Below are positions 44,510 through 47,484 of a stretch of 49,497 nucleotides of DNA, piece by piece. The DNA is taken from NCBI GenBank assembly GCA_028708035.1, contig JAQVZU010000004.1, positions 1 through 49,497 of the forward strand, given 5' to 3'. The notes beneath the pieces are model-generated. The model made no database searches. It was not told where the DNA came from and saw only the letters and a program-made list of their open reading frames with translations. This DNA is from Alphaproteobacteria bacterium (GTDB lineage: Bacteria > Pseudomonadota > Alphaproteobacteria > UBA9219). The stretch's first letter is position 1. The number at the start of each line of letters is the position of its first letter. The position numbers and the translations under genes were made by a program.

Positions 44510-44539
44510 GAGCGCGATCTTCGGATCGCGCTCTTTTTT
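44510..44539 (+). terminator. UUCG-tetraloop terminator of the tol operon
   Basis: GAGCGCGATC (44510-44519), loop TTCG, GATCGCGCTC (44524-44533), then six T (44534-44539): a textbook factor-independent terminator 15 bases after tolB. It acts on the plus strand only and touches the stop codon of the convergent coaB. Confidence 0.95.
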
Positions 44540-45921
44540 CATGGAGTCTTTGCGGAGGCTTCCGAGAGAGCGGCAATTTTTGCGACTATGGCTAAGGCTG
44601 CTTGGCTTTTGGGCAACGGCGGAAGGCGGCGCGGGTTGTCGGCGGTGGTGATAAAGGTTATCTGATTTGTCCCTTTGGGAAGGTTCGACTGTTCTCCTAC
44701 CGGGTTTGCACAAATCAGGTCGGCTTTCTTTTTTGCAAGCTTGTCGGTCGCATAAGCGATTAATTTCGAGGGGTCGTTTTCTGCCGCGAAGCCGATGACA
44801 AATGAGGGCCTGTTTTCGGCGCGCGTTCCCATCGCAGCCAGAATGTCCGAGTTCTGGTCCAGATTTATTGATTCGGCTTCATTTTCTGCAAGGGGATTTC
44901 CCAAGCCTTTTCGACAAAAGTCCGCGACTGCGGCGACGCCGATGTATATATCGGCAGGGAGCTTCGATTCCGCCGCCGCCAGCATCGACTTGGCAGAGGT
45001 GACGCGCGTCGTTTCGACGTTTTCATGCTTCGGCGCGGGGAAGTTTGTGCGGCCAACGACGTATTTAACCTTGGCTCCGGCGGCGGCAAGGATGCAGGCG
45101 ATTTCATAGCCTTGTTGGCCCGACGAGAAATTTGTGATGACATCGCCCGATTTTGTGAGAAGCTCCTCGGTCGGACCGCTGGTCATGACGACGGTTTTGC
45201 CTTTCAGGTTGTCGAAAAAGCGGGGCGAGAGAGAGGTTTCGGCTTTTATGTCCGAAGAAAGGATTGCGCTTGGTTCATTAAATTTGTCGTGCTTCGGAGC
45301 AGAGGCGAGCCACTCGGGAAACTTCTTGGACTCGAAAAGCGCGGGCCAATCTGTGCCGGGTTCTACCGAGGTCGGCCAGTTTTTTTCCCCCTGATCCGCG
45401 ATGTCGAGTGTGGCGAGCCAACCGGGAAGGTTGGCAGTCATAAATAGGGTTTGCCAACTGTCATAGCCTATTACAGGGATGTTCCATGGCCGTGTGCGCT
45501 TTTTGACGTCAATGTTTCCTATAACATCCAGCGCGACGGGTTTCCCCGGCTGGTTTTTTGCCTTTATCTTATGCGCGAAAACCGTTGCGGGCTTAAGCGA
45601 CGAGAGCGAAGCCAAACAAAGGGCGGCGGCGGGGGCATGTTTTTTAACGGTTTCTTCGGCGGCGGTCATGACATCTTCGCCAGAGACGATGCTCTTGCCG
45701 TTCAGCGCGTTCACGATTTCACAGCCTTCGGGGGCGGCAAGGCTGTTCTTTGGGGTAATGACGATGACGCGCGCGCCGCGCTTTTGTAGCTTTTGCGCGA
45801 CGGCGAAGCCGTGGCTTTCGAGGCGCTTGTGGTTCGCGTAATGGCGGATGCCGTCGATGCTCTCTACTGGAATTCCGGCGGTAATGACGAGGGTTTTTCC
45901 AATGAGGTCCATAATTGGCAT
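44539..45921 (-). CDS. coaB: Phosphopantothenate-cysteine ligase CoaB with two CoaB-like halves
   Basis: A 460-aa protein with two CoaB-like Rossmann halves instead of one. Residues 8-165 look like a first CoaB copy: LVITAGIPVESIDGIRHYAN keeps the Arg (26) and Asn (30) that match E. coli Dfp R206/N210, and the flap HKIKAK (117-122) matches the KIKK loop of K289, but the SSG loop and VADY motif are lost. Residues 240-450 are a second copy: SGPTEELL, NFSSGQQG (264-271), GVAAVADF (328-335), VIGFAAEND (375-383) and LICAN (402-406) are present, but the Arg is Asp260 and the KIKK flap is missing. The ligase joins cysteine to phosphopantothenate using a nucleotide. ATG 45921 has AAGGA seven bases upstream. 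It follows coaC by 10 bases. Confidence 0.85.
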   Translation of the reverse strand: MPIMDLIGKTLVITAGIPVESIDGIRHYANHKRLESHGFAVAQKLQKRGARVIVITPKNSLAAPEGCEIVNALNGKSIVSGEDVMTAAEETVKKHAPAAALCLASLSSLKPATVFAHKIKAKNQPGKPVALDVIGNIDVKKRTRPWNIPVIGYDSWQTLFMTANLPGWLATLDIADQGEKNWPTSVEPGTDWPALFESKKFPEWLASAPKHDKFNEPSAILSSDIKAETSLSPRFFDNLKGKTVVMTSGPTEELLTKSGDVITNFSSGQQGYEIACILAAAGAKVKYVVGRTNFPAPKHENVETTRVTSAKSMLAAAESKLPADIYIGVAAVADFCRKGLGNPLAENEAESINLDQNSDILAAMGTRAENRPSFVIGFAAENDPSKLIAYATDKLAKKKADLICANPVGEQSNLPKGTNQITFITTADNPRRLPPLPKSQAALAIVAKIAALSEASAKTP

Positions 45922-45931
45922 CGAAGTGTCC

Positions 45932-47011
45932 TTAAATTAATTTAAACAGGTCGAGGAGTGCGATGCGGATTTCGCCAAGGCGGGTGGCGACAGGCTGCGA
46001 AAGCCTTCCACTTTTTACGCATTCCGGCGTTGTAGCGATGGGCGCTTTGGAGGCGAGAGCTATGTCGAGGCATAACGATCCGCCCCGGCCTTCGAGCATC
46101 GCTGTTGCCGTTTTATCGTTCAGGAATGGGTATACGACAAGGCTTGCTTTTTCGGGCAAACGGATGTGCTCCATGCCGTCTTTTTTGCCCTCCGCGTTAA
46201 CGATTTGGTAGTGGTCGGTAACGACGGATAGGTCCTTGAGGCACGCGAGAATTTCATTCTTGTTTGGGAGGTTGGAATCAACGACCCAGTCGATCGGCAT
46301 GGGGGCCTTTTTAATCTTGGTCACCAGTTCGTCGAGTTCTTCTGTATCGACATCGCCGCAAAGCACGATGAGCAAGCGTTTAAGATTTTTGGGGAGGGGG
46401 GCAAGCTGTTTTTTGGGATCGGGTGCGGTTTCCTCGTAGGCTTTTTGGTAAAGGCTTAGCGCATCGTGGGGGGCTCCTTCGAGCGAGGCTTGAAGGGCTT
46501 CGACCATGGTGTTGACGTCGAGCATGCGGCCATAGCCTTCGTCGCCGCAAGCCATGGGTCCTTTGACCGGGCCGAGGAGAATGGCATTATGATCGTGTAG
46601 AGTGAAAAAGTTTTTTCGGACTGCCGGATGAGCCCAAATTTTTACGTTCATCGCGGGGGCGAAGAAAGTGGCGGCGCCTTTCCTCAGCGCATCGGCAATG
46701 GCTTTGCCGAGGCCGGGATCTTCATGAACGATCTGCGCTGCCATGTCGGCGCTTGAAATGACGAGGATGGCTTGCGCAGCGTTCAGAACTTTCTCTTTTT
46801 CGGAAAGAGGCGATGCGGCTGTCAGGACTTTGTGGCCGGTCGCAGCTTCAATTTTAGGGATGTTGACCCATTCGTAATATTCAGGGAAGCGCGTGAGAAT
46901 GACGGTTATGTCTTTCTTCGCCTCTTTCAGCTTTGCAATCAGGTCCGGCGTTTTGATGGATGCTATGGTTCCTGTCACCACGAGAATGACACGATTGTTC
47001 TCGTTGTCCAT
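45932..47011 (-). CDS. coaC: Phosphopantothenoylcysteine decarboxylase CoaC with two flavoprotein halves
   Basis: A 359-aa protein of two HFCD flavoprotein-like halves. The N-half (6-175) has VTGTIASIK (FMN loop), PAMNVKIW (119-126, Asn122) and ACGDEGYGRML (154-164, Cys155). The Asn-Cys spacing of 33 equals that of E. coli Dfp (N125/C158), but at the position of His75 (about 72) there is Lys in SEKEKVL. The C-half (208-359) has MEHIRLPEKASLVVYP with His282, while the PxMN position 50 residues later reads PECV and the Cys clamp is gone. So the active-site residues are divided between halves. ATG 47011 has GGAGG five bases upstream; TTG 47023 is weaker. Between rpiB (23 bases) and coaB (10 bases). 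Confidence 0.82.
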   Translation of the reverse strand: MDNENNRVILVVTGTIASIKTPDLIAKLKEAKKDITVILTRFPEYYEWVNIPKIEAATGHKVLTAASPLSEKEKVLNAAQAILVISSADMAAQIVHEDPGLGKAIADALRKGAATFFAPAMNVKIWAHPAVRKNFFTLHDHNAILLGPVKGPMACGDEGYGRMLDVNTMVEALQASLEGAPHDALSLYQKAYEETAPDPKKQLAPLPKNLKRLLIVLCGDVDTEELDELVTKIKKAPMPIDWVVDSNLPNKNEILACLKDLSVVTDHYQIVNAEGKKDGMEHIRLPEKASLVVYPFLNDKTATAMLEGRGGSLCLDIALASKAPIATTPECVKSGRLSQPVATRLGEIRIALLDLFKLI

Positions 47012-47034: not shown

Positions 47035-47484
47035 CTATAGGCCGCCCAGTGCCGTCAATTTATCGCGGCGTTCTTCGAAACGGCCGCCCATAAATTTCGT
47101 TTCCAAAAATGCATTCAGGCAGTCAAGAGCGACTTCCTGCCCTATAATGTGCGCGCCTAAAACCAATACGTTCGCATCGTTATGTTCGCGGGCAAGCCGA
47201 ACCATTGTCGTGTTGGTACACAGCGCCGCCCGGATGTGTTTGTAACGGTTGGCGGTCATGGCCATGGCTTGGCCTGTGCCGCAGATCAAAATTCCAAGAC
47301 GTTCGGGATGGGCGCGCATATCTTCAACAAGTTTTTGCGCAAAATCACCCGCATCGCAGCGGCTTTCGTCGGTTGTGCCAAAGTCTGCAACCCCAATGCC
47401 GCGCTCGCGTAGCTTTGCGGAAAGCAGCGCTTTTAACGGGTATCCGCGGTGGTCGGAAGCCATGGAAATGATTTGGGCGCTCAT
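47035..47484 (-). CDS. rpiB: Ribose-5-phosphate isomerase B
   Basis: A 149-aa RpiB/LacA/LacB-type isomerase of the pentose phosphate pathway. It shows SDHRGYPLK (Asp/His), DFGTTDESRCD, the catalytic Cys in ILICGTGQAMAMTANRY, and AREHNDANVLVLGAHIIG; the C-terminus GGRFEERRDKL carries the phosphate-binding arginines. The usual GTGIGM is GTGQAM here. AGGAG lies eight bases before the ATG. It heads the minus-strand set rpiB-coaC-coaB and diverges from the FliL-like gene. Confidence 0.94.
   Translation of the reverse strand: MSAQIISMASDHRGYPLKALLSAKLRERGIGVADFGTTDESRCDAGDFAQKLVEDMRAHPERLGILICGTGQAMAMTANRYKHIRAALCTNTTMVRLAREHNDANVLVLGAHIIGQEVALDCLNAFLETKFMGGRFEERRDKLTALGGL

Follow-up and report, generated by a model that had tools for sequence, protein, structure and literature searches.

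In a 49,497-nucleotide stretch of alphaproteobacterial DNA (called the window here), two neighboring genes of coenzyme A (CoA) synthesis are, as judged by profile comparison, internal duplications, and the two halves of each product have kept opposite sides of the active site. We coined the names coaC2 and coaB2 for these doubled genes (Table 1). We consider it highly probable that their products together provide a working phosphopantothenoylcysteine (PPC) decarboxylase and a working PPC synthetase, the outcome of an internal duplication of both domains of an ordinary CoaBC and later asymmetric loss. What was observed here is that all four halves are homologous to canonical domains, that their complementary pattern recurs in seven genomes, that no other coaBC was detected, and that pantothenate kinase (PanK), CoaD, and CoaE are present; the assignment of residues to protomers was taken from published papers. 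A preliminary description of the locus had recognized the doubling and split of CoaC but was incomplete, as it missed the same events in the neighboring coaB. All of the data are sequences of metagenome-assembled genomes (MAGs), without biochemistry.

Table 1. Positions of the doubled genes, their halves, and selected codons; coordinates refer to the window unless a contig is named.
Feature	Position	Strand	Description
coaC2, doubled PPC decarboxylase	45932..47011	-	359 aa; ATG at 47011, stop at 45932; intact ORF
CoaC2 N-half	46397..47011	-	Residues 1-205; has FMN loops, PAMN, and Cys flap; lacks His segment
CoaC2 C-half	45935..46384	-	Residues 210-359; has His segment EHIRLPE and LASKAP segment; lacks FMN loops, Asn, and Cys
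CoaC2 Asn122 codon (Dfp Asn125), in PAMN	46646..46648	-	N-halves 7/7, C-halves 0/7
CoaC2 Cys155 codon (Dfp Cys158), in ACGDEGYGRM	46547..46549	-	N-halves 7/7, C-halves 0/7
CoaC2 His282 codon (Dfp His75), in GMEHIRLPE	46166..46168	-	N-halves 0/7, C-halves 7/7
coaB2, doubled PPC synthetase	44539..45921	-	460 aa; starts 10 bp downstream of coaC2
CoaB2 N-half DFP domain	45493..45900	-	Has Asp23, Arg26, and Lys118 (E. coli Asp203, Arg206, and Lys289); lacks SSG, Asp279, and FAA
CoaB2 C-half DFP domain	44650..45207	-	Has NFSSG, AAVAD, and FAAE; Arg206 column is Asp260; lacks Lys289
CoaB2 Arg26 codon (E. coli Arg206)	45844..45846	-	Canonical 57/57, N-half 7/7, C-half 0/7 (Asp in 7/7)
CoaB2 Lys118 codon (E. 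coli Lys289, first Lys of KXKK)	45568..45570	-	Canonical 57/57, N-half 7/7, C-half 0/7
G003 coaC2	L006:1492-2385	-	C-half stops right after LASKIPVEIR; the L065 record of G003 is MAG Lab288P3bin233

Both halves of CoaC2 belong to the CoaC domain family. PF02441 matched only the N-half (residues 7 to 173, 36.9 bits against a cut-off of 22.7), and flavoprotein-family membership rests on this cut-off for the N-half and on profile comparison alone for the C-half. In profile-profile comparison with hhalign, the C-half aligned with 57 canonical CoaC domains over 142 columns (P 99.4, E 5.9e-21), which places the C-half in the flavoprotein family; a C-half of another fold was one of the outcomes that would have refuted the preliminary description. 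Negative controls, in which the C-half was compared with the CoaB domain and with both CoaB2 halves, gave a P of only 1.5 to 3.9. Furthermore, a profile built from five C-halves alone found canonical CoaBC of the same family within its CoaC domain (E down to 3.5e-9), and with a profile of seven C-halves, canonical CoaC domains from across the class aligned over almost their full length.

Next, we looked into how the catalytic residues are distributed between the halves, using seven doubled proteins from independent assemblies (the window and six relatives) and 57 canonical sequences. In E. coli Dfp numbering, His75 was present in 57/57 canonical CoaBC sequences, in none of the seven N-halves, and in all seven C-halves; Asn125 was found in 57/57 canonical sequences, 7/7 N-halves, and 0/7 C-halves, and Cys158 in 55/57, 7/7, and 0/7, respectively. 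The criterion for a PPC decarboxylase, namely, His, the Asn of PXMNXXMW, and the flap Cys within one domain, was thus unmet, with all three residues nonetheless present in the CoaC2 chain. The preliminary description had inferred two specialized CoaC copies with complementary residues fused in one chain, and the seven homologues support it. The residues and spacings that it gave were correct (33 positions between Asn122 of PAMN and Cys155, as between Dfp 125 and 158, and 50 between His282 and Val332, as between Dfp 75 and 125), as was the absence of the Cys clamp from the C-half. Two of its details proved to be particular to the window. A Lys was reported at the His75 position of the N-half; the His is indeed missing there, but the Lys is not conserved and relatives lack it. 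Likewise, Val332 does occupy the Asn column in the window, but this column holds Leu, Asp, or a gap in the remaining C-halves.

In the N-halves, the entire His segment (M73-G-H-I-x-L-x-R) is absent or unalignable and the Gly101/Leu112/Pro117 segment is also missing, with the GxIAxxK loop, Thr40, and most of the PATA loop retained. The C-halves have lost these FMN-phosphate loops (GxIAxxK, Thr40, and PATA) in addition to Asn and Cys, least completely in L066 and L067. They retain His75-Ile76-Leu78 as well as Gly101, Leu112, Ala113, and Pro117, and the retained stretch takes in the alpha4/alpha5 link, which lies at the center of the AtHal3 trimer (PMC6168597). When 40 near-invariant positions of canonical CoaC were scored as kept if found in at least six of the seven sequences, 26 were kept only by the N-half, 7 only by the C-half, none by both, and 7 by neither. 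Arg26 and Arg80 of canonical CoaC are absent from both halves of CoaC2, which speaks against a tidy split. In UbiX, an HFCD relative, the FMN phosphate is held by Ser41, Ser106, and Thr109, which lie just past the second and fourth strands (PMC4316190); because the loops in these places are those kept by the N-half, we infer by analogy that the N-half is the one that binds FMN. A second His, His267 of CoaC2 (46211-46213; HYQ/HFQ), about 15 residues before EHI, was invariant in all seven C-halves, and none of this type was seen among the canonical sequences inspected.

The neighboring gene shows a split as well. PF04127 matched CoaB2 twice (143.1 and 50.0 bits, cut-off 22), with the N-half giving the 50.0-bit match, and hhalign aligned the N-half with canonical CoaB (P 99.5, E 3e-23). 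It is because the C-half of CoaC2 and the N-half of CoaB2 match canonical CoaC and CoaB, respectively, in profile comparison that we regard both genes as internal duplications. In E. coli numbering, Asp203, Arg206, and Lys289 were each present in 57/57 canonical sequences, 7/7 CoaB2 N-halves, and 0/7 C-halves, the Arg206 column being Asp in every C-half. Ser213, Gly214, Ala276, Asp279, Phe327, and Ala328 were found in all seven C-halves and were mostly or wholly missing from the N-halves. CoaB2 therefore did not meet the criterion for a PPC synthetase of Arg206, the Lys289 loop, and the nucleotide-site motifs in one domain. The mirror is imperfect, since both halves retained Glu200, Asn210, and Gly217, and retention of the KXKK lysines beyond the first is only partial.

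In the CoaBC of M. smegmatis, the CTP site is closed by a KXKK loop from the opposing protomer, which also supplies Arg207 and Asp204, and Asp281 lies on the protomer that holds the CTP site (PMC7794376). These residues correspond to Arg206, Asp203, and Asp279 of E. coli, a conversion that we made by motif. Since it is the opposite protomer of M. smegmatis CoaB that contributes the Arg and the Lys loop, the split in CoaB2 is of the same kind as that in CoaC2, and judging from its residues, CoaB2 resembles two fused protomers of a dimer with one of the two sites surviving. Of the two proteins, CoaB2 makes the stronger case, because its halves add up to exactly one dimer and the residues have been assigned to protomers in published work.

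AlphaFold2 models made from the seven aligned sequences only had a pLDDT of 90 and a pTM of 0.88 for CoaC2 and a pLDDT of 81.6 and a pTM of 0.80 for CoaB2; the values for CoaC2 indicate that one defined arrangement of its halves is predicted. In structure searches, the modeled CoaC2 N-half matched AtHAL3a (1mvn; Z 21.2, 2.0 A over 170 residues), and the modeled CoaB2 C-half matched E. coli CoaB (1u7z; Z 23.7, 1.9 A over 214 residues). The N-half (residues 2 to 191) filled the list of matches to the whole CoaC2 chain, leaving the homology of the C-half to rest on profile comparison, and the C-half filled the list for CoaB2, so that the fold of its N-half was not covered. We judged the matches that UDP-GlcNAc 2-epimerases gave over the whole chain (Z about 9, rmsd 7 to 8 A) to be generic two-Rossmann matches.

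The preliminary description had proposed a search for the same architecture in related genomes, and it is present in six relatives. Full-length CoaC2 was found in G008, G009, and G003 of the window's genus, in G013 of the same family, and in two other alphaproteobacterial MAGs (L066 and L067), with 30 to 44% identity to the CoaC2 of the window; C-halves compared with each other had 23 to 38% identity. The two genes adjoin in the window, G008, G009, and L067, sit on two contigs in G003, and are fused in G013 and L066 into one chain with the domain order C-C-B-B. This recurrence across seven assemblies rules out an assembly artifact. Directly upstream of coaC2 in the window, and likewise in G008, is a gene that by eye resembles that for ribose-5-phosphate isomerase B (47035-47484, minus strand). 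Where other members of the family gave a match, the open frames had the size of ordinary CoaBC. Among 84,980 species, a motif scan picked out six loci, of which two (L066 and L067) were new lineages, and at the thresholds used, no further CoaC2 was detected in the 385 class and 398 phylum genomes drawn; divergent members could have escaped these searches. The seven N-halves clustered together in a tree of 71 domains, as did the seven C-halves in a group of their own (support 99/97 each). The grouping is consistent with a single duplication at the origin of these sequences, and long branches (up to 3.45, in the C-halves) make placement among the canonical sequences unsafe.

The same long branches reflect a fast evolution of the C-halves, as might be expected if the CoaC2 C-half and the CoaB2 N-half were decaying or had a purely structural or regulatory role, with the other half of each protein catalyzing by a changed mechanism that dispenses with the lost residues. 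The C-half of G003, cut short after LASKIP, could be read in the same way. We regard this as improbable, since the fast-evolving halves retain exactly the residues missing from their partners in 7/7 cases despite the low identity between C-halves, and the truncation in G003 leaves the His segment intact, taking away only the part that already lacked Asn and Cys.

No ordinary coaBC, whose presence elsewhere would have refuted the preliminary description, was detected by PF02441 and PF04127 profile searches of the window genome (96% complete), in which coaC2 was the sole PF02441 match and both PF04127 matches fell in coaB2. Because the genome has the pantothenate kinase CoaX, CoaD, and CoaE, the steps of CoaB and CoaC are the only ones otherwise missing. 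Six of the 10 genomes of the genus (G001, G002, G004, G005, G006, and G007) had no match to PF02441, PF04127, or PF03309, and CoaE was present in five of these six. The pantothenate-to-phosphopantetheine part of the pathway thus seems, from the profile searches, to have been lost in these congeners; the genus therefore tolerates its loss, which we counted against the reading of CoaC2 and CoaB2 as working enzymes. The absence of matches in these genomes would also suit nonfunctional coaC2 and coaB2 genes that are being lost as the genus gives up CoA synthesis. We think this very unlikely, given that the ORFs are intact in seven genomes, other genera included, that the catalytic residues are retained, and that PanK, CoaD, and CoaE remain in the window genome. 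There is just as little reason to favor a different chemistry (e.g., decarboxylation of another cysteine compound) with CoA made by an unrecognized route: both CoaC2 (82.9 bits) and CoaB2 (182.6 bits) fall short of the 219.7-bit cut-off of the CoaBC equivalog TIGR00521 (NCBIfam), but no other relatives of CoaC and CoaB were found in this genome, which does have PanK, CoaD, and CoaE, and the two genes are adjacent or fused in six of the genomes.

In G009 (L153:967-2820, plus strand) and G008 (L152:691-2775, minus strand), there appears to be a protein of 617 to 694 aa that combines CoaD-like, CoaE-like, and HD-hydrolase-like parts in one chain (the CoaE region was identified by PF01121 and the remainder by eye). 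In G009, its gene follows coaB2 downstream at a distance of about 1.5 kb, and both genomes carry an ordinary CoaE as well.

For CoaC2 and CoaB2 as working enzymes, the starting point would have been an ordinary CoaBC in which every active site is built from two neighboring protomers; in CoaC, the His and the Cys are supplied by adjacent protomers (PMC4626798). Both domains would then have duplicated internally, with each half retaining the residues of one side only. The N-half of CoaC2 would bind FMN and give Asn122 and Cys155, and the C-half would give His282; the C-half of CoaB2 would hold the nucleotide site, and the N-half would give Arg26 and the Lys118 loop. Because each half kept one side only, each product would have a single kind of composite active site, formed between an N-half and a C-half. 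Activity, composite sites, and assembly are inferences, made without activity or structure data.

The CoaBC particle of M. smegmatis is a tetrahedron of 12 chains, in which CoaC trimers occupy the four corners and CoaB dimers the six edges (PMC7794376). With six C-C-B-B units, the numbers of CoaC and CoaB domains would again be 12 and 12, and it is conceivable, though doubtful and purely inferential, that such units build the tetrahedron in place of 12 chains, with one unit and its CoaB pseudo-dimer on each edge. Every trimer at a corner would in that case contain both N- and C-halves, and both possible compositions (NNC and NCC) have one productive-type interface, i.e., one live decarboxylase site each. 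If true, the CoaBC particle would be obligately asymmetric, and the even number of halves in a trimeric enzyme would be explained. A simple pseudo-dimer without trimers is equally open.

The doubled proteins resemble canonical CoaBC (E. coli Dfp and M. smegmatis 6TGV) in both domain families, in their catalytic residues overall, and in the reactions and protomer-shared sites inferred for them. They differ in that a canonical chain, part of a dodecamer, has one CoaC and one CoaB domain and contributes both sides, whereas here there are two of each with the sides divided and an undetermined assembly. The yeast PPC decarboxylase heterotrimer of Hal3/Vhs3 and Cab3, to which the preliminary description had aptly compared CoaC2, likewise has His and Asn/Cys on two specialized CoaC-type domains; in yeast, one productive site forms per trimer (PMC4626798, PMC9604783). 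By this criterion (His and Asn/Cys on different CoaC domains), CoaC2 is of the yeast type, which is a mechanistic likeness and not membership. The yeast subunits, however, are encoded by separate genes, and Cab3 retains a nonfunctional His, whereas CoaC2 is one chain whose Asn/Cys half lacks the His segment; moreover, the doubled case is bacterial and fused, and CoaB is divided too. The monomeric herpesvirus dUTPase also derives from a trimeric enzyme by internal duplication, with its motifs divided between the halves and a single active site (PMC8961515), but it is unrelated and represents one enzyme rather than two consecutive ones of a pathway. No earlier description of duplicated CoaB or CoaC was found in the literature searched, which mostly did not cover subscription journals.

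For annotation, these proteins are a caution, as single-domain models miss half of each. The division of residues lends independent support to the published protomer assignments in both CoaB and CoaC, and it provides a bacterial parallel to yeast Hal3/Cab3. Two consecutive enzymes of an essential pathway, whose steps lead from phosphopantothenate to phosphopantetheine, appear in a few alphaproteobacteria to share one evolutionary step, in which a domain with a protomer-shared site is duplicated and the copies then lose opposite sides. They offer a natural example, open to testing, of an oligomer whose symmetry has been broken irreversibly.
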